Shown in pieces: positions 1-17,374 of a DNA stretch of 37,398 bases. The stretch covers positions 1-37,398 of the forward strand of contig CAIYDQ010000271.1 of assembly GCA_903925075.1 (NCBI GenBank). Direction: 5' to 3'. The notes below the pieces were generated by a model. That model saw only the letters and a program-made list of their open reading frames with translations, searched no databases and was not told the DNA's origin. A program made the position numbers and the translations under genes. This stretch comes from an uncultured Geobacter sp. (GTDB lineage: Bacteria; Desulfobacterota; Desulfuromonadia; Geobacterales; Geobacteraceae). How positions within the stretch are numbered: the first letter of the stretch is position 1; each line of letters begins with the position of its first letter.

Positions 1-317
1 AGCAGGTGACAAGCTGTCGGGAGCAGGTGATAAGTTGTCGGGAGCAGGTGACAAGCTGTCCGGAGCAGGTGACAAGCTGTCCGGAGCAGGTGACAAGCTG
101 TCGGGAGCAGGTGACAAGCTGTCCGGAGCAGGTGACAAGTTGTCGGGAGCAGGTGACAAGTTGTCGGGAGCAGGTGACAAGCTGTCGGGAGCAGGTGACA
201 AGCTGTCGGGAGCAGGTGATAAGTTGTCGGGAGCGGGTGATAAGCTGTCGGGAGCAGGTGATAAGCTGTCGGGAGCAGGTGACAAGTTGTCGTGAGCGGC
301 TGACAAGTTGTCAGCCG
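1..317. repeat. 21-bp tandem array of 15 dyad sites
   Basis: Fifteen copies of an 11-bp dyad (GACAAGYTGTC, or GATAAGYTGTC) start at position 8 and recur every 21 bp exactly, the last at 302-312. The linker is mostly GGGAGCAGGT. The period is two helical turns, so all dyads face the same side of the helix. Variation is nearly confined to two pyrimidine positions inside the dyad. The array runs off the left edge, so its true length is unknown. Two frames stay open across it (heptads SCREQVT and SGAGDKL), but this follows from a 21-bp unit without stops and is not evidence of a gene. Confidence 0.95.
297..317. promoter_or_regulatory. Perfect palindrome capping the 21-bp array
   Basis: The last array unit departs from the consensus linker and becomes a perfect inverted repeat: arms CGGCTGACAA and TTGTCAGCCG around a central G. 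It holds the same GACAAGTTGTC core as the internal copies. It could be the strongest site for an array-binding protein, or a stem-loop if transcribed. No function is known from the sequence. Confidence 0.6.
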
Positions 318-426: not shown

Positions 427-2304
427 TCAGAAGGTCTCGCACAGCGACTCGTTGATCCCTTTCAGCATCTCGTACCAGAAATCTTTGGCGGCCTCCAACT
501 GGTCAGCCTCGAACTTCTCCAGCCACAGCTTCAGCTCCGGGCTCTCATCCCCATCCACCTCCCGCTTTCTTCTCAAAAAGGTGTGCACGTAGTCGACGTC
601 GCGCTGCGACTCCCAAAATATCGGACAGTTGTGGCTGTTGAGCCGGCTGGCCAGCACGGAGATGGCACGCAGGAACTCGTCCCGACAGCCGTAAAGGGAA
701 TCCATCACCTCCGGCAGCAGTTCCTCGGCCCAGGCGCGGTGGAAACGGCAGATGCCGAGGTTGTCGAGTATCAACTCCGCCTTCAGGCGGCCGGCGCACT
801 TTCGTCCGAGTTCCCGCGGCGGCAGGAAGTCGTTGCTGTACACCATGTAGTACTTCCCCATCACCGTCATCGGCGCCAGCGCGCCCGCCACCCAGTACTG
901 GTTGGGGGCCATCCAGCCGCGCCGCCCGAAGGCGATGTAGGCCATGGAGTCGTGCAGATTTATTCCGCGCCCGGCGGAATGGATGCGGCTCCACTTCCGG
1001 ATCCCTTCCCGTAAATCGAGGATGCCGCGACGCTCCAGGATGGCGTCGATCAGCTCCATCCCCAGTTCGGCGTTGTGCAGCGAATCGGCGATCAGGTCGA
1101 AGCGCTCCAGGTCCCAGCGCGGCAGCCTGGTCACCCCCAGTTCGCCGGGGGTAAGCGTCCCGACATCGAGCAGTTCCATGAGCCAGGCGAGCACCGCGCC
1201 GCCGGAGATGCCGTCGAACCCCATGGCGTCGCAGCGGTGGTTCAGCTTTTCGGCGGCGCGCTGATCGAAGATGCCGCACAAGGGACCCATGGTCTGGTAG
1301 GGCTCGTAATCCTTCTTGAATTCGCCGTTCATCTTCTTGCAGACGGCGACGCACGGCTCGCCGCAGGTCGACTGCTGCTTGCCGCCTATGGTCTCCTCGT
1401 TGAACTGCTTCAGGTAATGATCGACGATGAACCTGCCGTGCAGGTCGAGCCGCGCCTCTTCCGTGTCGAAAATAGTGCGGTAGTTGAACGCCATGATCTT
1501 GCCGCCCATCCCCGCGTAGTTCACGCCGAAGGTGCCGCCGGTGCTGAACTTCTCGTCGAAACGGTACTTGCTGGTCGCCTCCAGGTCCTTTTGGTGCAGT
1601 TTAAGGTTGTATTTGTTCTGGAACCACTGGTCGGCGACCTTGTGGTCGCGGAAATCGTCCTCCACCACGGTGCCGCCGTAGATGACGGCGACGATGCCGT
1701 GCTGCTGCAGCATGGCGCTGCCGAATCCGCCCCGCCCGGCCCAGGTGTCGACCTGCCCGATCTTGCCGCGGCTGATGGGAACCGACATGATCGCACCCAT
1801 GTCGGTCTGGCCCGCAGCCGGCCCGCAGACCAGGATGCGCGGGTCGCGCTCGTAGCGCCCGCCGAACAGGCGGTGGACCTCATCGGTGAGGGCGTAGACC
1901 CCGGTGCGTCCGCTGCGCCAGATCGCCTCCACGTCGACCGGGACCACCTCGACCTCGATCTCCTCGCCGTGGTTGCGGTTGAGCACCAGGACCGACGGCG
2001 AGTGCGCCTTGCCTACCAGGCTCAGCATGTTGATGCCCAGGTTGTTGAAGACCAGTCCGGCGCCCCCCATGGAGGAGACGTAGAGCCCCTGCCAGCAGGG
2101 GGAGCGGCCGGTGAGCACCAGGCGATTGGAGCCGGGGAAGATGGAGCCGGCGAAGACGCCGACCCCGAAGTTGAGGCTGTTGGCCTTGTCGGCCAGGTGG
2201 ATGCCGAGGTCTACCGGCCCGAAGTAGCGGTCGAAGCCGTATTTGCGCGTTCGATAGAAACCGGTGGCAGGATCTACGAACAGCACTTTTTGATGCATAT
2301 CCAT
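427..2304 (-). CDS. Aldehyde:ferredoxin oxidoreductase family (tungsten/molybdopterin) enzyme
   Basis: The predicted 625-residue cytoplasmic enzyme belongs to the family that oxidises aldehydes to acids, or works as the active-site subunit of low-potential reductases, using a bis-pterin W/Mo cofactor and one [4Fe-4S] cluster. Visible signatures are the N-terminal pterin-domain motif AGRGGFGSAM, a cysteine set CGEPCVAVC near residue 313, CDAMGFDGISGG shortly after, and DNLGIC near residue 515, matching the family DxxGLC motif that supplies the last cluster cysteine. The first cysteines are spaced C-x3-C-x3-C; from memory archaeal AOR has C-x2-C-x3-C. The start is set at the ATG at 2304 because AGGAGGG lies about 6 nt upstream; an in-frame ATG at 2328 lacks a ribosome site. 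No ferredoxin or maturation gene is adjacent, so the substrate is unknown. BamB-type reductase subunits are in the same superfamily, but the other Bam genes are absent. Confidence 0.88.
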   Translation of the reverse strand: MDMHQKVLFVDPATGFYRTRKYGFDRYFGPVDLGIHLADKANSLNFGVGVFAGSIFPGSNRLVLTGRSPCWQGLYVSSMGGAGLVFNNLGINMLSLVGKAHSPSVLVLNRNHGEEIEVEVVPVDVEAIWRSGRTGVYALTDEVHRLFGGRYERDPRILVCGPAAGQTDMGAIMSVPISRGKIGQVDTWAGRGGFGSAMLQQHGIVAVIYGGTVVEDDFRDHKVADQWFQNKYNLKLHQKDLEATSKYRFDEKFSTGGTFGVNYAGMGGKIMAFNYRTIFDTEEARLDLHGRFIVDHYLKQFNEETIGGKQQSTCGEPCVAVCKKMNGEFKKDYEPYQTMGPLCGIFDQRAAEKLNHRCDAMGFDGISGGAVLAWLMELLDVGTLTPGELGVTRLPRWDLERFDLIADSLHNAELGMELIDAILERRGILDLREGIRKWSRIHSAGRGINLHDSMAYIAFGRRGWMAPNQYWVAGALAPMTVMGKYYMVYSNDFLPPRELGRKCAGRLKAELILDNLGICRFHRAWAEELLPEVMDSLYGCRDEFLRAISVLASRLNSHNCPIFWESQRDVDYVHTFLRRKREVDGDESPELKLWLEKFEADQLEAAKDFWYEMLKGINESLCETF

Positions 2305-2364
2305 GCTTCCCTCCTCGCGAAGTGCCATTAATACAAACTCACGCGTCGCAGTTCTTCCCCTTTT

Positions 2365-3351: not shown

Positions 3352-3457
3352 TCTGGTTTACATTTTCGCCAAATTGTGAGATTTAAATGGTTTATGCGTT
3401 TCGCAGGTGTGTTGCCGTTCAGGGCCGGCATCTCGCGAACCCCTTGTCGAGGTGATA

Positions 3458-5767
3458 GTGAGGCAGCGCCCCCGCCTTTACATTTCATGCCGCGCCCGAT
3501 CGCCGCTTCTGCCGGCGGCGCTGATGACGCTCGGCGTCTGGACGCTGCTCCTTGCCGGCGCCTCGCTGCTGCAGGCCGCCCAGTCGCCCGCGACGGCAAC
3601 CCTGATCCCCTCCGCGACCTCCTCCTACTCGGTGAACAAGACGGTCTTCTGGGTCGGGGCGGTCTTCACTTTTTACCTCACCGCCGCCTCGCTGTTCCTC
3701 TATCTGAACGTCCGGCGCCGCAAAAGCCTGGAAAAGGTGCTCCGGATGACGGAGGCCAAGTTCCGGCAGCTGTTCAACAGCGCCGGCGACGCCATCTATA
3801 TACATGACCTGCAGAACCATATCCTGGAGGTGAACCAGGCGGCCTGCGACTTGATGGGGTTCAGCCGCGACCAGTTCCTGGGGCTCACCTTGAGCCAGGT
3901 GGACTCCGCCGAGCGGATACCGGGCGGCTACGAGCCGATCGAGATGCTCAAGCAGCACGGCAGCGCGCGCTACGAGACGCTGCACCGCACGGCCCGCGGC
4001 GAGTTCATCCCGGTGGAGGTGAGCGCCAGGGCGATCGACTACGACGACCGCCCCGCCATCCTCAGCCTGGTGCGGGACATCAGCGAACGGAAAAGCATCG
4101 AGCTGCGGGAAAAAACCCGCCTGCAAATTCTCGAGGAGATGGCCAGCGGCGCCCCCTTGGAGGACCTTTTGAGCTACATCGTCAGGTTCGTCGAGCAGGA
4201 AAGCCCGGGGGCGCTCTGCTCGGTGCTTTTGACCTGCGAGTCGGGGGAGAAATTGCAGTTGGGCGCCGCTCCCAGCCTGCCGGATTTCTACAACCAGGCG
4301 GTGGACGGCTTGCGGATCAAGCACGGCATGGGTTCCTGCGGCACGGCGGCTTTCCTGCGCGAGCGGGTGATCGTGGCCGACATCGACAACCACCCGTTCT
4401 GGAAGGGGTTCGAGCCGGCTCGCCGGGCGGGCCTTTTGGCCTGCTGGTCGGAGCCGGTGTTCTCGGTGAACGGCGAGCTTTTGGGCACCTTCGCCATCTA
4501 CTACCGCAGTTGCCGGACCCCCACCGCCAAGGAACTCTCCCTGATCGAGTCGGCGGCCCATATGACCAGCATCGCCGTGGGACGGGTGCGCAGCGACGAG
4601 AGCCGCTTGAACCTGGAAATGCAGATGCGCCAGATGCAAAAGATCGAGGCGGTCGGGCAACTGGCGGCAGGCCTCGCCCACGACTTCAACAACCTGTTGA
4701 CGCCGATCTTCGTCTACGCCGACATCGTCAAGCGCAGCCTCTCCGAGGACGACCCCAACCGCGGCAAGATCAAGGGGATCATCTCCTCCGCCGGCAAGGC
4801 CGCCGACCTGACCAAGCAACTGCTCTCCTTCGGGCGCAAACAGATCCTGAAAAAAGAGACCCTCGACTTGAACGAGGTGATCGTCTCGCTCTACGACCTG
4901 CTGCAAAGAACCATCCGCGCCAACATCGAGATCAAGACGGAATTGGCCGTCGACGGCGCCGCCGTCTTCGCCGATCGCGGACAGTTGGAGCAGATCCTCG
5001 TCAACCTGGCGGTCAACGCCCAGGACGCCATCAAGGGGAACGGCCTGATCGTGGTGGCGACCCAAAACGTGGTGATCGACCCGGAACTGGCCAAGCTGAA
5101 CCCCGGCATGAAGAGCGGCCCCCACGTCCTCTTGTCCTTCATCGACGACGGTTGCGGCATGCCCGAAGAGGTGCTGGCCCACATGTTCGAGCCGTTTTAT
5201 ACCACCAAGCCCCTGGGGAGAGGCACCGGCCTGGGGCTTGCCACGGTCTACGGCATCGTCAAGCAGCATAACGGCTTCATCAAGGCGCTGAGCGAGGTGG
5301 GCCAGGGGAGTTCGCTTTTGGTCTACCTGCCAAGCGTCGGCGGCGAAACCGGCAGCGCCTCCGCGCCGGCGCCCGACCCGCCCGAACCTTCCCGCAGCGC
5401 CGGGGCGCAGCTGATACTGGTGGTGGACGACAACGAGTTGATCCGGGAAATGGCGGTGGAGCTGCTGGAATCCTCCGGCTACCGGGTGCTGGCGGCCGAC
5501 ACCCCGGCCAAGGCCAGGGAACTGGCGCAAAGCCACGGCGACACCGTCGCCCTGCTGGTAACCGACGTGGTCATGCCGGAGATGAGCGGGCCGCAACTGT
5601 ACGAGATCCTGGTCGCGGCGCAGCCGGAGCTCCCCGTGCTCTATATTTCCGGCTACACCTTCGATCTGAAATTGCAGGGACGAGGCGGCGGGGACCGGGT
5701 CAACTTCCTCCCCAAGCCGTTCACCAGCGAGCAACTGTTGTCCGGCATTCAGCAGGCGCTGAAGTGA
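3458..5767 (+). CDS. Hybrid sensor histidine kinase (TM-PAS-GAF-HisKA-HATPase-REC)
   Basis: The 769-residue membrane kinase starts the signalling operon. Two hydrophobic segments (about residues 18-40 and 65-87) enclose a short periplasmic loop. A PAS domain (about 100-215) and a GAF domain (about 225-385) follow. The dimerisation helix carries phospho-acceptor H408 in GLAHDFNN. The ATPase domain has NLAVNAQDAI, DDGCGM and GRGTGLGLATVYGIV. The C-terminal receiver has its acidic pocket in VVDD, phospho-acceptor D703 in VTDVVMPEMSG, and the lysine in LPKPF. The start is uncertain: GTG at 3458 follows GAGG by 5 nt and is preferred over GTG at 3407, which has no ribosome site. The stop overlaps the next start (GTGA). 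The GAF/PAS ligands cannot be read from sequence. Confidence 0.9.
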   Translation: MRQRPRLYISCRARSPLLPAALMTLGVWTLLLAGASLLQAAQSPATATLIPSATSSYSVNKTVFWVGAVFTFYLTAASLFLYLNVRRRKSLEKVLRMTEAKFRQLFNSAGDAIYIHDLQNHILEVNQAACDLMGFSRDQFLGLTLSQVDSAERIPGGYEPIEMLKQHGSARYETLHRTARGEFIPVEVSARAIDYDDRPAILSLVRDISERKSIELREKTRLQILEEMASGAPLEDLLSYIVRFVEQESPGALCSVLLTCESGEKLQLGAAPSLPDFYNQAVDGLRIKHGMGSCGTAAFLRERVIVADIDNHPFWKGFEPARRAGLLACWSEPVFSVNGELLGTFAIYYRSCRTPTAKELSLIESAAHMTSIAVGRVRSDESRLNLEMQMRQMQKIEAVGQLAAGLAHDFNNLLTPIFVYADIVKRSLSEDDPNRGKIKGIISSAGKAADLTKQLLSFGRKQILKKETLDLNEVIVSLYDLLQRTIRANIEIKTELAVDGAAVFADRGQLEQILVNLAVNAQDAIKGNGLIVVATQNVVIDPELAKLNPGMKSGPHVLLSFIDDGCGMPEEVLAHMFEPFYTTKPLGRGTGLGLATVYGIVKQHNGFIKALSEVGQGSSLLVYLPSVGGETGSASAPAPDPPEPSRSAGAQLILVVDDNELIREMAVELLESSGYRVLAADTPAKARELAQSHGDTVALLVTDVVMPEMSGPQLYEILVAAQPELPVLYISGYTFDLKLQGRGGGDRVNFLPKPFTSEQLLSGIQQALK

Positions 5768-7884
5768 AAAAACCGCGCCAAGGCAATCAGCAGATGCGAA
5801 CCACGACCAAACTGATCATAGCCAACGGCATGCTGGCTCTTGCCAGCGCCGGTGCGCTCGCCCTCCTGCTCGACTCCCGGGAGCCGTTGCGCCAGGCGGG
5901 CTCCCCGGTCGCCGTCCTGCTGGCGGCGCTGATCTGCGGCATGCTGGCGATCAACCTGCTGCTCTTGAGAAAAACCCGCGGCTTCGAGAACGCCGAGACC
6001 AACAGTCTCAGGCTGTTGCGAACGCTGATGGACACCATCCCCTGCCCCATCTACTACAAGGACGTCGACGGCCGCTACCTCGGCTTCAACAAGGCCTACG
6101 AGTCCTTCGTGGGCCTTGCCCAGGAGCGGATGATCGGCAGGACGTCCCGCGACCTGTGGCCCAAGGACCTGGCCGAAACCTACGAGCAGCAGGACAGGGC
6201 CTTGCGCGAACACCCGGGCACCCAGATCTACGAGGGGGCCTTCCTGTACGCGGACGGCAACCGGCGCGACGTCATCTTTCACAAGAGCACCTTCCTGTCG
6301 GAGCACGGCTCCGTCGCCGGCTCGGTGGGGGTGATCTTCGACATAACCGAGCGCAAGGCCGCCGAACAGGAGATCAAGAACTCCAACCAGCGCCTGCACG
6401 ACATCATCGAGTTTCTCCCGGACGCCACCTTCGTGGTCGACGGCCAGGGGCGGGTGATCGCCTGGAACAACTCGATCGAGGAGATGACCGGGGTGAAGAA
6501 GGAGGAGATCGTCGGCCAGGGCGACTTCGCCTATGCGCTCCCCTTCTACGGCGCGCGCCGGCCGATCCTGATCGACCTGATCGACGAGGACCCGGACACG
6601 CTCATCGCCGATTACCCCTTCCTGAAAAGGGAGGGACGCAACCTCTTCACCCAGACGCTGATACCGGCGACCCCGGAGCGGGCGAGCCGCTACATCTGGG
6701 GGACGGCCGCCCCGCTGTTCGACAATTGCGGCAACCGGGTCGGGGCCATCGAGTCGATGCGCGACATCACCGACTACAAGCGGGTCGAAGACGAACTGCG
6801 CGTGACCAACCTGCTGCAGTCCACCCAGCTGGAATGCTCGATCGACGGCATCCTGGCGGTGGACGCGCAGGCGCGCATCGTCTCCTACAACCGGCGCTTC
6901 AAGGAGATCTTCCAGGTCTCCCAGTCGGTGCTGGACGCAGGCTCCGACGACGCCATGCTAAGGCACGCCATGGAGCAGGCGGAGCGCCCCGGGGAGTTTT
7001 TGCAGGCGGTGCAAAGGATCTACCGGCAGCGCCACGACACCAGCCGCGACGAGCTGCGGCTCAAGGGGGGAGCGGTCATCGACCGGTATTCCGCCCCGAT
7101 GTTCGACGCCGACGGCCGCTATTACGGCAGGGTCTGGTACTTCCGCGACGTGAGCGAGCAAAAGCGCGCCGAGGAGGTGCGCCTGCGCCTGGAAGCCCAG
7201 CGGCACCACTCGCAGATGATGGAGTCGTTCATCACCCAGTTGGGGCACGACCTGAGGACCCCGCTCACGCCGCTCTTCGCCCTGATCCCGCTGATCAGGA
7301 AGAAGGTGGTCGATCCCGACCTGGTGATGATGATCGACATCTGCAGCCAAAGCGTGGTCACGGTGCGCGAACTCACCGAGAAGGCCCTGAAGCTGGTGAG
7401 CCTGTCGGCCTCCACCGCCGGCGGGGTGCTGCAGCAGGTGGACCTTGCCGAGGAGGTGGCCGGGTACCTGGTCGAGAACGGCGCCCATTTCGACGGCAAC
7501 GGCGTATACTGCGAAAACGGCATCGAGCCGGGGATCGCGGTGCTGGTGGTGCCGGACCAGTTGAAGGAGCTTTTCAACAACCTGCTCTCCAACGCCGCCC
7601 GCCATTCCCATCAGGGGGGGGTGATCAGCATCCGGGCCGAGCGCGGCCAGGACAAGGTGACGGTGGCGGTGCAGGATCAGGGGGTGGGGGTCGATCCGAC
7701 CGTGTTGGAGCAGATCTTCGACGAGTTTTTCAAGGTGGACGAATCCAGGCACGACCTCGGTTCTCCCGGATTGGGGCTGGCCATCTGCCGCAGGATCGTC
7801 GCCAACCACCAGGGGACCATTTGGGCGGAAAGCGACGGCAAAGGGCGGGGGCTGACGGTCCGCTTCACCCTGCCGATCCAATAA
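5764..7884 (+). CDS. Membrane sensor histidine kinase with three PAS domains
   Basis: This 706-residue kinase has two N-terminal hydrophobic segments (about residues 15-35 and 45-65), then three PAS domains (about 75-200, 205-345, 350-475). HisKA carries H495 in QLGHDLRTPLTPL, and the HATPase domain has NNLLSNAARH and SPGLGLAICRRIVANHQG. The second PAS domain contains FAYALPFYGARRPILID, nearly repeated in the kinase at 8902, so the two probably sense a similar cue. The GTG start shares bases with the upstream stop (GTGA); ATG at 5794 is an alternative. There is no receiver in the protein, so partners are probably the receivers at 7930 or 10390. Confidence 0.9.
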   Translation: MKKPRQGNQQMRTTTKLIIANGMLALASAGALALLLDSREPLRQAGSPVAVLLAALICGMLAINLLLLRKTRGFENAETNSLRLLRTLMDTIPCPIYYKDVDGRYLGFNKAYESFVGLAQERMIGRTSRDLWPKDLAETYEQQDRALREHPGTQIYEGAFLYADGNRRDVIFHKSTFLSEHGSVAGSVGVIFDITERKAAEQEIKNSNQRLHDIIEFLPDATFVVDGQGRVIAWNNSIEEMTGVKKEEIVGQGDFAYALPFYGARRPILIDLIDEDPDTLIADYPFLKREGRNLFTQTLIPATPERASRYIWGTAAPLFDNCGNRVGAIESMRDITDYKRVEDELRVTNLLQSTQLECSIDGILAVDAQARIVSYNRRFKEIFQVSQSVLDAGSDDAMLRHAMEQAERPGEFLQAVQRIYRQRHDTSRDELRLKGGAVIDRYSAPMFDADGRYYGRVWYFRDVSEQKRAEEVRLRLEAQRHHSQMMESFITQLGHDLRTPLTPLFALIPLIRKKVVDPDLVMMIDICSQSVVTVRELTEKALKLVSLSASTAGGVLQQVDLAEEVAGYLVENGAHFDGNGVYCENGIEPGIAVLVVPDQLKELFNNLLSNAARHSHQGGVISIRAERGQDKVTVAVQDQGVGVDPTVLEQIFDEFFKVDESRHDLGSPGLGLAICRRIVANHQGTIWAESDGKGRGLTVRFTLPIQ

Positions 7885-7929
7885 AATAACAGCTCGGGGG
7901 AGCCCACCCCGTTAAGGAGGCGATGAACG

Positions 7930-8310
7930 ATGAACAGCACCAAGGTGATGATCGTTGACGACAACAAGATGATCAGGGAATCGGTCAGGATCCTTTTGCA
8001 CAGCGAGGGAGTCGACATCGTGGTCGCCGACGGCGGCAGCGAGTGCCTCAGCTGCCTGCAGGCCGGCTTTCGGGGGATCATCCTGATGGACGTCATGATG
8101 CCGGGGATGGATGGCTGGGACACCATCAGAGAGATCGTCGACCAGGGGCTGTACGACGGCAACGTGATCCTGATGCTGACCGGCAAGAGCGAGCCGGACC
8201 TCAAGATGGAAGGGATCCAGGAATACGTCACCGACTACGTCACCAAGCCGTTCGACCCGCTGGAACTGATCGGCACCATTCGCTATCTGGCGGAGCTGCG
8301 CAAAGGATGA
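7930..8310 (+). CDS. Single-domain response regulator (CheY-like receiver)
   Basis: The 126 residues form only a receiver domain: MIVDDNK acidic pocket, phospho-acceptor D54 in LMDVMMPGMDGW, switch threonine in LTGK, and lysine in TKPFDP. It has no output domain, so it would act by protein contact or as a phosphate relay or sink for the kinases around it. TAAGGAGG lies about 10 nt before the ATG, the clearest ribosome site in this operon, suggesting it is made in excess over the kinases. It begins 45 nt after the upstream stop and is followed 10 nt later by the CheB-type gene. Confidence 0.93.
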   Translation: MNSTKVMIVDDNKMIRESVRILLHSEGVDIVVADGGSECLSCLQAGFRGIILMDVMMPGMDGWDTIREIVDQGLYDGNVILMLTGKSEPDLKMEGIQEYVTDYVTKPFDPLELIGTIRYLAELRKG

Positions 8311-8320
8311 GATCACCACA

Positions 8321-8890
8321 ATGACCGTCAACGTAGTCATGATAGGGGTATCCACCGGCGGACCGGTCGCGCTCAAGCAGCTCTTGGGCGAATTGCCGGC
8401 CGGCAACGCCGCCTTCGTGGTGGTGCTGCACGTTCCTGCGGGGATGGACGACAAGGTCGCCAAGAGCCTGGACGCCGTCTGCCCGATGCCGGTCGCCCTG
8501 GCGCGCCACGGCGAGTCGCTGCAAGCCGGCAGGATCTACCTGGCCCCCGCCGGCCTGCACCTGTCTCTGGAGGGGAACAACAGCCGCATCGCGCTCAAGG
8601 AAGGACCGCGGGTGAATTTCGTGCAACCCTCGGCGGACGTGGCCATGTTGTCGCTGTCCAAGCCCCGCGGGGAGCGGCTGATCGGCGTGATCCTGACCGG
8701 CATGGGGAGGGACGGCGCCGAAGGGATTCGGCACATCAAGTCGCTGGGCGGCGTGACCTTCGCCCAGGAGCGGGCATCCTGCGCGATCTACGGCATGCCC
8801 AAGGCCGCGGTGGAAACCGGCGCGGTCGATTTTGAACTGACCCCGCAGGCGATCAGGAAGAAGCTGGGCGAGCTGTTGGGCGGGAGGTAG
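8321..8890 (+). CDS. Stand-alone CheB-type protein-glutamate methylesterase
   Basis: The 189-residue protein is the catalytic domain of CheB without its usual N-terminal receiver. CheB removes methyl groups from (and deamidates) glutamines/glutamates of chemoreceptors. The serine, histidine and aspartate of the triad are visible: S11 in GVSTGGP, H37 in VVVLHVPAGM, and D131 in ILTGMGRDGAEG. Length equals the catalytic domain alone. No CheR or methyl-accepting protein is in the operon, and no regulatory receiver is fused. Control may come from the separate receiver at 7930. Its target could be a non-chemotaxis receptor or a kinase in this cluster, which is inference. Confidence 0.9.
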   Translation: MTVNVVMIGVSTGGPVALKQLLGELPAGNAAFVVVLHVPAGMDDKVAKSLDAVCPMPVALARHGESLQAGRIYLAPAGLHLSLEGNNSRIALKEGPRVNFVQPSADVAMLSLSKPRGERLIGVILTGMGRDGAEGIRHIKSLGGVTFAQERASCAIYGMPKAAVETGAVDFELTPQAIRKKLGELLGGR

Positions 8891-8901
8891 CGACGACGCG
8901 G

Positions 8902-10317
8902 ATGAATCGATTCGAAAAATCCCTGATACCGTTTTTGACCCTGCTGCTGGTCGGCTCGCTCATCGGCGCGCTCATCGCCGTACTTGGCCGCCGCGTCGCG
9001 GTGGTGCCGGTCTTGGAGATACTCGCCCTGGGAGCCCTGGTGCTCCTTTCCCTGCTGCTCCTGGCCCCGGTCCGTTATTACCGGCGCAACGCCCAAGAGG
9101 CGCTTCAGGAGGAGCGCCGCCAGTTGGCCGACATCGTCGACCTGCTGCCGGACGCCACCTGGGCGGTGGACGCGAAGGGGACGGTGATCGCCTGGAACCA
9201 GGCGATCGAGGAGCTGACCGGGGTCAAATCCCGGGATATGGTGGGACTGGACGACTTCGCCTACTCGGTCCCTTTTTACGGCTGTCGCCGGCCGATCCTG
9301 GTCGACGTCGCCATCGCCCCCGACCCCGCGCAGGAACTCAGGTACGACTCCTTCCGCCGCAGCGGCGACACGGTGGAGGCGGAGATCTTCATCCCGCACT
9401 TCGGAGCCAGCGGGCTGTTTTTGTGGGCCCGGGCCCGGCGGCTTCTGGACGCCGAAGGCCAGGTGGTGGGCGCCGTGGAAACGGTGCGCGACATCACCGA
9501 GAGAAAGCGCCTGCACGAGGTGATGATGCAGACCGAGAAAATGCTCACGGTGGGCGGCCTGGCGGCGGGAATGGCGCACGAGATCAACAACCCGCTGGCG
9601 GCGATCCTGCAGAACATCCAGAATTTGCAGCGGCGGCTGTCGCCGGGGCTGCCGGCCAACGACAAGGCGGCCCAGCAGTTTAACCTTGATTTCGCGGCCA
9701 TGCAGTGCTATCTGAAGCAGCGGGGAATTTTCGAGCTCTTGGGGATGGTGGAGGCCGCGGGTGCGCGGGTGGCCGGCATCGTCGAGAAGATGATGTTCTT
9801 CAGCCACAGCGACTCGGCGCTGCTGGAGCCGGCTCGCCTCGACCAGCTGCTCGATCAGGCGGTGGATCTGGTGGCCTGCGACTACGACCTGAAGAAGAGG
9901 TGCGAATTCCGGACCAGCCAGATCGTGCGCGACTACGACCCAACGCTTCCGGCGCTGATGGTCAACCGCGCCGAGTTGGAGCAGGCGCTGATCAACCTGA
10001 TCAAGAACGCGGTCCATGCCCTTACCCCGACGCCGGAGGGGAGGACGCCGCGCATAACCATCAGCACCAGGCAAAACGGCTCCTACGCCGCCATCCAGAT
10101 CGAGGACAACGGCTGCGGCATGACCCCCGAGGTGAGACGGCGCATCTTCGAACCGTTTTTCACCACCAAAGACGTCTGCATCGGCACCGGCCTCGGCCTG
10201 GCGGTCACCTACGCCGTGGTGGTGAAGAACCATCGCGGCAGCATCGAGGTCGATTCCACGCCCGGCGTCGGCAGCAAAGTCACCGTCAACCTGCCGATAC
10301 CGAGGGAGGAAGGCTAA
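8902..10317 (+). CDS. Membrane PAS histidine kinase
   Basis: This 471-residue kinase has two hydrophobic segments (about residues 8-29 and 33-57) with almost no periplasmic loop, so it probably senses in the membrane or cytoplasm. One PAS domain (about 75-200) holds FAYSVPFYGCRRPILVD, a close relative of the second PAS of the kinase at 5764. HisKA has H226 in GMAHEINNPLAAIL, typical of NtrB/ZraS-like kinases. The ATPase domain has NLIKNAVHAL, EDNGCGM and GTGLGLAVTYAVV. An insert (about 245-290) lies between HisKA helices. It begins 11 nt after the CheB-type gene. The only G-rich ribosome-like stretch, GGGAGG, lies at the end of that gene. Confidence 0.9.
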   Translation: MNRFEKSLIPFLTLLLVGSLIGALIAVLGRRVAVVPVLEILALGALVLLSLLLLAPVRYYRRNAQEALQEERRQLADIVDLLPDATWAVDAKGTVIAWNQAIEELTGVKSRDMVGLDDFAYSVPFYGCRRPILVDVAIAPDPAQELRYDSFRRSGDTVEAEIFIPHFGASGLFLWARARRLLDAEGQVVGAVETVRDITERKRLHEVMMQTEKMLTVGGLAAGMAHEINNPLAAILQNIQNLQRRLSPGLPANDKAAQQFNLDFAAMQCYLKQRGIFELLGMVEAAGARVAGIVEKMMFFSHSDSALLEPARLDQLLDQAVDLVACDYDLKKRCEFRTSQIVRDYDPTLPALMVNRAELEQALINLIKNAVHALTPTPEGRTPRITISTRQNGSYAAIQIEDNGCGMTPEVRRRIFEPFFTTKDVCIGTGLGLAVTYAVVVKNHRGSIEVDSTPGVGSKVTVNLPIPREEG

Positions 10318-10389
10318 AGGCTAAGGGCTGAGGGATAGGGATGAGGAACCAGCGATGAGCGAGCAGGGATGAGGGATAAGGAACCAGGA
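10314..10389. repeat. Degenerate short repeats (GGGAT/GATGAGG) between operon genes
   Basis: The 72-bp gap between two operon genes is made of drifting short purine-rich units such as AAGGCTAAGGG, GAGGGATAGGGAT and GATGAGGGATAAGGAACCAG, the last family appearing twice. They resemble the TAAGGGC heptamer (reverse strand) of the array at 13245. The final AAGGA serves as ribosome site for the next gene. Confidence 0.6.
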
Positions 10390-10788
10390 ATGTGCCATGC
10401 CATTGCCGTACTGCTCGTGGACGACGACGAACTGGTCAGCACCTGCATCTCCATCTGGCTGGAGGACGAGGGCTTCACCGTCTACAGCGCCAATAGCGGC
10501 GAGGCGGCCTTGCGGCTCATGGCCGAGAACCCGGTCGACGTGGCGCTGGTGGACCTGCAACTGGGGGAGCTCAACGGCGAAGAGGTGATCGCGCAGGCCT
10601 GCGCCGCTCATCCGGCCACTCAATTCATGGTGCACACGGGCCAACACTACTATCAACTGCCCGACAGACTGCTGGAGCTGGGGCTGCAGCAGCAAAACGT
10701 CGTCTTCAAGCCGATCCTGGATCTCGATTCTTTTGTCGCCGCCATCCGCCGTTCGGTTTCAGGAGTTCCCAAACATGCCGTCAACTGA
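10390..10788 (+). CDS. Single-domain response regulator
   Basis: The 132-residue protein is a receiver domain: LLVDDDE pocket, phospho-acceptor D55 in VALVDLQLGELNGEEV, histidine-rich segment HTGQHYYQLP after the switch threonine, and K107 in VVFKPILD. There is no output domain. The ATG at 10390 is chosen over ATG at 10369 because AAGGA lies about 8 nt upstream and the extra residues come from the repeat tract. Its 3' end overlaps the next gene by 14 nt, so translation is probably coupled, which makes the REC-GGDEF-EAL protein a likely functional partner. Confidence 0.88.
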   Translation: MCHAIAVLLVDDDELVSTCISIWLEDEGFTVYSANSGEAALRLMAENPVDVALVDLQLGELNGEEVIAQACAAHPATQFMVHTGQHYYQLPDRLLELGLQQQNVVFKPILDLDSFVAAIRRSVSGVPKHAVN

Positions 10789-12496
10789 CCAGATTTCAGT
10801 GCTGATCGTCGAGGATGACGCCTGCCAACGGCGCAGCATCGTCGATTACCTGGAAGACAGCGGCTTTCAAACCTACGAAGCCGCCAGCGGCGAGGAAGGG
10901 ATCGCCCTTTTCAGGCAAAGGCACCCGGACCTGGTGTTCACCGACCTGAACATGGCCAACGGCCACGGCCTAAACCTGATCACCCAGGTGAAGAAGGAGA
11001 GCCCGTTGACCCCGGTGGTGGTGATCTCCGGGACCGGCATGATCAGCGACGCGGTCGATGCCATGAAACGAGGGGCCTGGGACTTCATCACCAAACCGGT
11101 GCGCCGGCTCTCCGAGTTGGAAGAGCTCTGCCGGAAACTATTGAAGCAGGCGCACGAGGAGAGAGAGCGGCAGCGCTGCAGCGAGCAAAACGAGCAGGAG
11201 TACCGTTTCCGACGGCTGCACGACGCGCTGACCGGACTTCCCAACCGGCTGCAACTGGGCGACCTGTTCCGGCCGCGCACCGGCGCCGGCTTGCGCATGT
11301 GCCTGATACTTCTGGATTTGAACAACTTCAAGATCGTCAACGCCAACTTCGGCCATCGGGTCGCCAACGAGCTCCTCTGCCAGGTCGCCTCCCGGCTCAC
11401 CGCCGCCTGCGGCGGCACCGACATACTGGCTCATCTGGGGGGGGACGAATTCGCCGTCCTCACCACCTACAGCGAAACGAACACCGACGCCTTCATCGAT
11501 GGCTTGCAGCGGGCCTTCGGCACACCCTTCACCGCCGGCGACCAGGAGCTGTTCGTCTCGGCAAGCCTGGGGGTCGCCAGTTGGCCCGGCGACGGCAGCG
11601 GGGTCGAAGACCTGCTCAGGTGCGCCAATATCGCCATCTGCCGGACCAAGGAGCGCGGCCGCACCACGGTGCAATACTACGATCCGGTTTTCGGAGATCA
11701 CGTGCGCGGCCGCATCGAGCTGGAAACCAGCCTGCGGCGGGCCTTGGAGCGCGACGAGTTCACCCTGCACTACCAGCCGCAGATCGAACTCGCCAGCGGC
11801 ACCATGTCCGGGGTCGAGGCGCTGGTTCGTTGGCAGCGCAGCGACGGCGTGCTGGTCAGTCCTTCGGATTTCGTGCCGGTGCTGGAGGAGTCGGGGCTGA
11901 TCATCCCGGTAGGCGAGTTTATTTTGAGGCAGGCTTGCCGTCAGTACGTGGAGTGGCAACAACAGGGGACGCCTTCCTTCATGCTCTCGGTGAACATCTC
12001 CGCCACCCAGTTCAAGTCCGGCACCCTGCCGGCGACCGTGATCAAGACCCTCAGGGAGACCGGGATGAGTCCGGACTACCTCTGCCTGGAGCTTACCGAG
12101 AGCATCGTCATGGACGACGTCGAGGACACCGTGCGCACCCTCACCGTCCTTCGCGACCTGGGTCTTTCGCTCTCCATCGACGACTTCGGCACCGGCTACT
12201 CGTCGCTCAGCTATCTGCGCAGGATGCCGATCAGCGAGCTGAAGATCGACCGCAGTTTCATCTCCACCATTCCCGACGACCAGAACAACACCGTGATCGT
12301 CAACTCCATCATCAGCATGGCCCAGTATCTGAACATCAGGGTGGTGGCCGAAGGGGTGGAAACCCTGGAGCAATTGCAGCAACTCTCCCAGTGCCAATGC
12401 CACATGGTACAGGGCTTTTACTTCAGCAAACCGCTGGTGGCCGAGCGGATCGCCGAGTTCGCCGGCCGGACCTTCGAAGTGCCCGCCGCCGACTAG
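10775..12496 (+). CDS. REC-GGDEF-EAL protein, probable c-di-GMP phosphodiesterase
   Basis: The 573-residue protein has a receiver (D57 in FTDLNMANG, K107 in ITKPV), a GGDEF domain (about 145-305) and an EAL domain (about 315-565). The EAL domain looks active: EAL at 348-350, then NIS, ELTES, DDFGTGYSSL, K in ELKIDR, EGVE and QGFYFSKP. The GGDEF domain keeps HLGGDEF (222-226), but its nucleotide site departs from the family: the usual LDLDxF reads LDLNNF, IND reads VNA, and GHxxGD reads GHRVAN. The inhibitory-site arginine is also absent (GGTD). It is therefore likely a phosphorylation-controlled phosphodiesterase with a regulatory GGDEF domain. CAGGAG precedes ATG 10775; a start at 10733 is less likely. 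Confidence 0.9.
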   Translation: MPSTDQISVLIVEDDACQRRSIVDYLEDSGFQTYEAASGEEGIALFRQRHPDLVFTDLNMANGHGLNLITQVKKESPLTPVVVISGTGMISDAVDAMKRGAWDFITKPVRRLSELEELCRKLLKQAHEERERQRCSEQNEQEYRFRRLHDALTGLPNRLQLGDLFRPRTGAGLRMCLILLDLNNFKIVNANFGHRVANELLCQVASRLTAACGGTDILAHLGGDEFAVLTTYSETNTDAFIDGLQRAFGTPFTAGDQELFVSASLGVASWPGDGSGVEDLLRCANIAICRTKERGRTTVQYYDPVFGDHVRGRIELETSLRRALERDEFTLHYQPQIELASGTMSGVEALVRWQRSDGVLVSPSDFVPVLEESGLIIPVGEFILRQACRQYVEWQQQGTPSFMLSVNISATQFKSGTLPATVIKTLRETGMSPDYLCLELTESIVMDDVEDTVRTLTVLRDLGLSLSIDDFGTGYSSLSYLRRMPISELKIDRSFISTIPDDQNNTVIVNSIISMAQYLNIRVVAEGVETLEQLQQLSQCQCHMVQGFYFSKPLVAERIAEFAGRTFEVPAAD

Positions 12497-13111: not shown

Positions 13112-13346
13112 AGCTGGCAGTCCCGCCCCATCTCCGGGCTAACCCGCTAATGAGCTGGGTATTCGGCGGCATGCCGCGCCGCGCAGCGGAGGAGAGAGGG
13201 CCGGCAAGCTGTCCATAACGTCAAAGTGAAGCGTTTGCAGGGCCGCCCTTAGCCCTTAGCCCTTAGCCCTTAGCCCTTAGCCCTTAGCCCTTAGCCCTTA
13301 GCCCTTAGCCCTTAGCCCTTAGCCCTTAGCCCCGAGGACTTTCCCC
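13112..13346 (+). other. Leader of the DUF6125-icmF transcript
   Basis: About 230 nt separate the predicted transcript start from the ATG at 13347. The first half is GC-rich without an obvious ORF. It was searched for a cobalamin riboswitch B12 box because IcmF uses B12; none was found. The second half is the heptamer array at 13245-13328. GAGGA at 13333-13337 serves as ribosome site. Confidence 0.4.
13245..13328. repeat. Twelve tandem copies of the heptamer GCCCTTA
   Basis: Twelve uninterrupted, identical 7-bp units (84 bp) end 4 bp before the ribosome site of the gene at 13347. Perfect short tandem repeats of this length are prone to slippage, so the leader length between promoter and start codon may vary between cells. 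Confidence 0.95.
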
Positions 13347-13913
13347 ATGACAGAACCGACCGAAAAACCCGCCGCGGACCTCCAGGCCGGCGACGAAGGC
13401 ATCAGGCTCCTTTACGACTTGAGCAAAGAGGAACTGGTGAAGATCATCACCGACGACGCCAAAAACTGGCTGGCCCACGACGGGGTCTGGTTCCAGTCGC
13501 TGGAGAAAAAGTTCGGCATGGAGGTGGCGGTCGACATCGACACCGACGCCTGGCGCATGTTCACCGTCATCGAGGCCAAGCGCATCATGGAGCGCCTGGG
13601 GATGAAGCCGGGCGGCGGCATCCCGGCCCTGATGGAATGCCTGAAACACCGATTCTACGCCCGGCTCAACCTGCAGGAATGCATCGAAGCCAGCGACACC
13701 CGGGTGATCTTTCGCATGCTCGATTGCCGCGTGCAATCGGCGCGCAAACGAAAGGGACTCCCGGACCACCCCTGCAAGTCGGTCGGCATCGTCGAATATT
13801 CCGAGTTCGCCAAAGCGATCGACCCGCGCATCCAGACCCGCTGCCTCGCTTGTCCGCCGGACCGGCATCCCGAGGAGTTCTGGTGCGCCTGGGAATTCAC
13901 CCTCTGCTCATAA
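13347..13913 (+). CDS. DUF6125-like protein preceding icmF
   Basis: This 188-residue soluble protein resembles the DUF6125 family as remembered, with the segment [19 protein letters not shown] (about residues 39-57) and [15 protein letters not shown] [23 protein letters not shown]. Function is unknown. The C-terminal half is rich in cysteine: C126 in DCRVQ, then [15 protein letters not shown] and FWCAWEF, enough to bind a metal or cluster, which is inference. It lies 55 bp before icmF in the same direction and behind the same promoter, so a role in B12 mutase function or acyl-CoA handling is plausible. The GAGGA ribosome site directly abuts the heptamer array. Confidence 0.7.
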
Positions 13914-17247: not shown

Positions 17248-17374
17248 GTAGGTCGCGTTGAGGCACGAAACGCGACGTTGCGATGCCGCCACGAGTTGCG
17301 GTGACGCCAAGGGGGGCGGTCATGGCGTCCATGTGACGTTGCGTTTCACGAAGAATCCGTTCAACGCAACCTAC
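17248..17374. repeat. Palindromic intergenic element, copy B
   Basis: This 127-bp element begins GTAGGTCGCGTTGAGGCACG and ends with the reverse complement of GTAGGTTGCGTTGAACGG. The GAACGG-TTC-TCGTGAAACGC arm of copy A (2662) is here on the right, so the copies are inverted. Here it lies between icmF and the nitroreductase gene. Confidence 0.75.

Follow-up and report, generated by a model that had tools for sequence, protein, structure and literature searches.

A noncoding 21-bp tandem array at a Geobacter contig end, apparently an orphan member of a family of gene–array modules

What is a tandem repeat of strictly constant step at the end of a Geobacter contig, and to what system does it belong? 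The window, a stretch of 37,398 nucleotides from an uncultured Geobacter sp., corresponds to contig C271 in its entirety, one of the 368 that make up a 6.55-Mb draft genome. It begins with a tandem array of 15 in-phase 21-bp units (positions 1–322, no strand assigned), truncated on the left; since the window is a whole contig, this left end is the end of the assembly and not the true end of the array. Cores of the form GAYAAGYTGTC, 15 in number, start at 8, 29 and onward to 302 (8 + 21n, n = 0–14; 8–312, plus strand), each step being exactly 21 bp. TRF reports the array at 1–312 (period 21, 14.9 copies, 93% match, 0 indels, score 505), in agreement with the first-pass annotation, which had described dyads from 8 to 302 at an exact 21-bp period without an indel. 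Lag-21 identity is 0.94 over 250 bp; the best lag that is not a multiple of 21 (lags 12–60, whole window) reaches an identity of only 0.50.

The terminal unit (297–317, no strand assigned; CGGCTGACAAGTTGTCAGCCG) is a perfect 21-bp palindrome with 10-bp arms flanking a central G, as had been claimed for the unit at 302. It is identical to its reverse complement at 20 of 21 positions, the central G excepted (dyad pairs 10/10, shuffle p 0.0004). An ordinary unit, taken as a whole-unit dyad, forms 6/10 pairs and is not above chance (p 0.24). Within the dyad C/T is the sole variation, at unit positions 10 and 14, so that the earlier description of pyrimidine swaps is accurate there; it does not extend to the whole unit, which also varies outside the dyad (A/G at 4, G/C at 19, G/T at 20).

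The array appears to be an orphan within a family of modules that each combine a gene for a small helical protein with a private noncoding array. The protein encoded beside the arrays is here named AAP. No AAP gene is present in the window, the whole of which was searched. The gap between the array and the neighbouring gene (323–426, 104 bp, no strand assigned) is without one and holds a short hairpin, ccccgaagggg, at 362–372 (by eye). The neighbouring gene (427–2328, minus strand, pointing at the array) resembles aldehyde ferredoxin oxidoreductase (Pfam AFOR_N and AFOR_C). Its single close ortholog found, in genome G004, is without an array, and the gene is not thought to be part of the system. 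The array is thus an orphan on its visible side; alternatively, an AAP gene may sit past the contig end.

Units similar to those of the window occur in the same genome on contigs C275, C247, C143 and C161, and within the genus in G005 (G. paludis Red736), G010 (Geomonas oryzae S43) and G013 (G. azotofigens Red51). Among 277 genomes of the class, a pattern of four successive cores matched 4, each within the genus and with 0 control matches; two others of the genus, G006 (Citrifermentans bremense R1) and G015 (presumably G. bemidjiensis), gave control matches only. The search of related genomes for the unit, proposed at the outset, thus found similar arrays in the own genome and the genus, with the period conserved and the unit sequence not. 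Matches to exact TGACAASTTGTC (both strands) lie inside arrays in 14 of 15 cases in the own genome, 22 of 22 in G005 and 2 of 2 in G010; none is observed in G013. With a single own-genome match outside arrays (exact matches only), single sites do not recur as in a regulon. An operator cluster, one of the functions first suggested, is unlikely because TGACAASTTGTC is almost restricted to arrays and the ortholog of the neighbouring gene in G004 lacks one.

Linkage to AAP genes was evident from the first 11 array loci, 5 with an AAP-family gene adjoining the array and 6 without; two of the latter, the window array and that of C161, end at contig ends. A first AAP profile was built from those 5 genes, and genomes were searched by protein alone. 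It matched 20 of 39 genomes, namely all 19 of the genus and one from another genus, at 73 places; flanks were taken for 70 (three were not fetched). The best self-match lag (lags 12–40, within about 1.5 kb of the AAP gene) was exactly 21 in 63 of the 70 loci. Coding DNA alone favours some lags, and the measure was therefore repeated on 140 random windows, sampled with replacement in 400 kb from 4 genomes; lag 21 was best in 22. Since random windows by chance already favour 21 or 42 (22/140 at lags 12–40; 25/140 at lags 12–60), the identity cut carries weight: lag 21 with identity of at least 0.55 was found at 60/70 AAP loci and 2/140 random windows (Fisher 3e-39), related loci not being independent. 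By an explicit rule an array is present at 62/70 loci. L091, fetched for the second of two neighbouring AAP genes in G008, was scored on the gene and array of L076 and is a duplicate, the second gene having no array of its own; counts of distinct genes are accordingly 62/70 (lag), 59/70 (identity cut) and 61/70 (array). Arrays lie downstream of the AAP gene in 56 of 63 cases, at a median distance of 144 bp, 53 of the 56 within 400 bp. Seven lie upstream, five of them at low-scoring, more distant members. The eight loci without an array by the rule are L068, L069, L079, L119, L128, L094, L097 and L123; the last three are at contig ends, and L068 has a unit of 42 bp. That the module of AAP gene and two-turn array is real is close to certain.

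The linkage was also approached from the side of the arrays. A blind reverse test (400 kb in even steps from four genomes, genes ignored) gave three arrays of period 21/42, all in G015. Two of the three lie directly downstream of diverged AAP genes missed by the first profile; the third (L143) is without an AAP gene. In control L148 a weak AAP-like ORF is not accompanied by any array scoring 80 or more in TRF. Across the order, a broad N-terminal profile had matches in 22 of 141 genomes, which belong to 4 of the 29 genera, with up to 19 copies in one genome (G024). At 43 diverged loci, other genera included (one, L174, is the same gene as L079 of the first set), the best lag (lags 12–60) was 21 or 42 in 27, of which 25 had identity of at least 0.55 and two (L230 and L231, 0.48–0.51) are near background; it was 41, 43, 20 or 22 in 7, of which L206 and L221 (0.48–0.50) are likewise near background, and unrelated in 9. 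The same measure on the 140 random windows gave 25 at 21/42, 3 of them at identity of at least 0.55, and 1 at 20/22/41/43. Neither 41 nor 43 is divisible by 3, but both are close to four helical turns. Arrays of 43 bp with motifs of the GGCATACC/GGTATGCC type occur at L136 (3647–4341), L238 and L239; the latter two lie downstream of diverged AAP genes, and that of L136 is without an AAP match in its 20-kb locus.

AAP is a protein of about 140 amino acids, or of about 215 with a C-terminal fibronectin-III-like domain (Pfam fn3 26.4 bits in the L142 member, cut-off 25; weaker in other long members). For the members tried, the N-terminal domain has no match above the curated Pfam/NCBIfam cut-offs and few weak ones below, no accepted PADLOC match and no match in PHROGs; no DNA-binding domain is recognised. 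The AlphaFold2 model is a bundle of long helices (pLDDT 83), for which a structural search returned no significant fold match. Basic residues are conserved close to both ends of the protein. The dN/dS ratio is 0.09–0.46 in 19 of 20 pairs, the remaining pair having no synonymous change: AAP is under purifying selection.

Unit sequence diverges together with the protein. Where AAP proteins differ by more than 50%, units agree at 9.3–9.6 of 21 positions, near the shuffled level of 9.3 (computed without L060 and L061); where they differ by less than 35%, units agree at 12.9–16.7, and better in the orientation of the gene. The Mantel correlation of protein and unit distance is 0.56 over 61 arrays, with 0 of 2000 permutations as high. 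Such joint divergence also follows from mere physical linkage. Dyad symmetry, prominent in the window, is only slightly raised over 63 arrays (6.08 pairs, 5.39 in shuffles; p<0.05 in 10), and the first-pass annotation's emphasis on the dyad as the conserved feature does not carry over to the family. What is conserved is a step of about 21 bp, neither sequence nor dyad. In B-DNA 21 bp make two turns, and the proposal of two helical turns per unit fits this step.

Binding of the arrays by one or more other host proteins, with AAP regulated by the complex or accessory to it and not itself touching DNA, would suit the shared period of most paralogs, yet with an AAP that has no known DNA-binding fold, and the retention of orphan arrays that have no gene in cis. 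The tetranucleotide CGCG is present in 33 of 61 consensus units, where shuffling predicts 6.1, although related arrays are not independent and part of this is common descent. A single common binder would, however, constrain the units, and those of distant paralogs are near chance. This alternative is distinctly unlikely.

That the array encodes a heptapeptide-repeat protein, the outcome named at the outset as counting against a binding array, is highly improbable. The period is divisible by 3 and open frames span the window array, but the codon-phase share in 56 arrays is 0.448 against 0.447 (Fisher p 0.94), giving no codon signal; in 22 of 63 arrays none of the six frames is open, the number of synonymous changes in the open frames taken together is as expected (ratio 1.00), and steps of 20, 22 or 43 occur in some related arrays. 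If only the best frame per array is counted, synonymous changes number 1058 where 825 are expected, an uncalibrated figure read as the effect of picking maxima. A single open frame with synonymous bias, as of a protein-coding heptad repeat, was not found in the arrays.

A terminator-like site lies between the AAP stop codon and the array in at least 19 of 52 cases, compared with 3 of 52 upstream stretches of equal length. RNA folding of 61 arrays is weak on average (mean z −0.41 and −0.65 by strand) with no clear strand preference (p 0.07); z is below −1.64 in 11% and 18% of them on the two strands, somewhat above expectation. GC skew is absent from the arrays and AT skew is small (0.09). Except for two tRNAs, nothing in the window or in 10 array loci reaches the Rfam gathering score. 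The lack of codon phase, the terminator-like sites, the weak mean folding and the absence of GC skew together point to duplex DNA as the working form, and the arrays are probably not RNA-acting. The alternative that the array has its own promoter and yields a repeat RNA as a partner of AAP, remotely like type III toxin–antitoxin or Avd–RNA complexes, is unlikely. The small helical bundle with basic residues near both ends would suit such a partner, Avd of diversity-generating retroelements appears as one of the weak Foldseek matches (E 3.6–4.5), and a minority of arrays show the significant dyads and stronger folds given above. This alternative is opposed by the terminator-like sites that often part gene from array, the weak and strand-indifferent mean folding, the lack of GC skew, the Rfam result and the unconstrained unit sequence among distant paralogs.

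Arrays can outlast their genes. One G006 module has an orthologous locus in G015 where almost the whole gene is gone and about 20 units remain; the G006 AAP gene itself has an in-frame stop. The array thus persists without a gene in cis. Terminal repeats that we take to be IS256-like are found no more than 150 bp from the array in 8 of 61 modules, and at 2 sites in the 400-kb control, one of which is the site beside the L143 array. They also adjoin the orphan arrays L143 (11698–11727) and L242 (847–876), and occur at L017 (4442). As these ends are more frequent near array edges than in the control, arrays would attract or tolerate insertions, and insertions at arrays may help explain contig breaks.

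These observations suit an account in which the arrays are neutral minisatellites, made and homogenised by slippage, with AAP genes residing in slippage-prone regions or hitch-hiking on moving segments: orphan arrays exist, one has outlived its gene, units are reshuffled next to a nearly unchanged gene, mobile-element ends are frequent near arrays, and the array is missing at the G004 ortholog of the window's neighbouring gene. Slippage alone cannot, however, fix a step of 21 across unrelated sequences, and it leaves unexplained both the excess of 60/70 over 2/140 and on which side of the gene, and how far from it, the arrays usually lie. Neutral origin is unlikely. The earlier judgement that the window repeat is not a random minisatellite is supported by the recurrence of its step in dozens of sequence-unrelated arrays of relatives and by the absence of coding signal.

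Two loci show further neighbours of arrays. At L053 (3540–3740) the array enters the 5' part of a DinD-resembling ORF (by eye), as if inserted at its start or replacing it. At L055 (6820–7413) an ORF like a REP-associated tyrosine transposase (by eye) adjoins the G. azotofigens module and has no visible counterpart at the matching locus of G. oryzae.

The preferred reading, assigned a probability of roughly 0.5, is that AAP coats its array on one helical face to form an iteron- or centromere-like DNA platform. The linkage, the period and the noncoding character of the arrays are shown; the role of AAP as the binder, the one-face geometry and any purpose are inferred. AAP, or a complex containing it, would bind the array cooperatively on one face of the helix, and the bound array, roughly 5–28 units spaced at about 21 bp, would form a local nucleoprotein structure like those of plasmid iterons or partition sites. 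In each paralog protein and array sequence would drift jointly while the two-turn spacing is held. Candidate purposes are anchoring DNA, insulating DNA and titrating AAP. The first-pass reading of the window repeat as a protein-binding array is partly supported; drawn from the window alone, it missed the linked protein family and the period as the conserved feature.

In the P1 and F plasmids an extra array lies downstream of the rep gene (incA, incC). Iterons are direct repeats of 17–22 bp bound by a dedicated protein, and binding ceases to be cooperative when half a helical turn separates two sites (PMC4980987). The modules resemble iteron–Rep systems (F, P1, R6K, pPS10) in tandem repeats of about 17–22 bp beside a gene, the cognate relation being putative; they differ in being chromosomal, several per genome, of up to 28 units and with no replicon. 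AAP as a winged-helix Rep initiator was rejected, the N-terminal domain of the members tried having no accepted Pfam/NCBIfam/PHROG match and the model being a long-helix bundle. A plasmid replication origin was also rejected, modules being dispersed in single-contig genomes of 4.5–5.0 Mb; for the one member tried, no plasmid match was observed.

Partition centromeres (pSM19035, TP228, pCXC100) likewise combine a small protein with a repeat site (PMC5016525). AAP modules share with the ParB/ParR/ParG type an array and a small, putatively binding protein, and differ in the several unrelated arrays per genome. No motor NTPase is seen as a regular neighbour near 11 arrays inspected by eye; a single ORF resembling ParA was noted about 2.8 kb away from the array on C247 (by eye). 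In type III toxin–antitoxin systems (ToxIN) a gene for a small protein is preceded by short tandem repeats, which act as RNA. AAP arrays differ in lying mostly downstream (56/63), often past a terminator-like site. This assignment was rejected on the position of the arrays, and no match to ToxN-like or toxin families is observed for the members tried.

Direct repeats are also on record for this group of organisms. The genome of Geobacter bemidjiensis has multicopy intergenic direct repeats of 6–42 nt, and that of G. metallireducens has other repeat families (PMC2996986; PMC2700814). The former are like AAP arrays in being intergenic direct repeats of the same organism group and may include some arrays of this type; the available text of that account makes no mention of a 21-bp rule or of an associated gene family (PMC2996986). 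No link between arrays and a gene family was found in the open-licence literature on Geomonas/Geobacter tandem repeats, on fibronectin-III proteins with repeats and on 21-bp arrays. The set of modules in Geobacter relatives (Geomonas/Citrifermentans) is apparently large and undescribed in the literature examined.

A broader interpretation is put forward tentatively. The modules may form a new class of chromosomal element, in which each AAP paralog owns a private, fast-evolving satellite, free in sequence and locked to a two-turn step; some ten orthogonal protein–array pairs per genome would then serve as local anchors or chromatin-like domains. AAP–array pairs would be a bacterial parallel of centromeric satellites and their binding proteins. 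Bacterial minisatellites are usually dismissed as noise; here the step is constrained and the sequence free, and most arrays examined are tied to an unnamed protein family present in all 19 genomes of the genus searched. If the pairs are specific, they would supply many natural orthogonal protein–DNA pairs, open the role of a two-turn array in bacterial chromosomes to direct testing in soil bacteria that can be cultured, and give the uncharacterised AAP family a genomic partner.

The remainder of the window has repeats and genes of other kinds. GCCCTTA is repeated 12.6 times with zero mismatches at 13245–13332, directly 5' of a DUF6125 gene (13347–13913); its step of 7 bp is one third of 21. 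An interspersed repeat lies at 2649–2770 and 17248–17374, and at 8489–8608 of L018; a second contig of this genome carries it with 89% identity across 122 bp. By eye its halves are inverted around GTAGGTCGTGTT, and it looks to be of REP or MITE type. PAS/GAF histidine kinases, response regulators, CheB and a GGDEF–EAL protein occupy 3407–12496 in one run.
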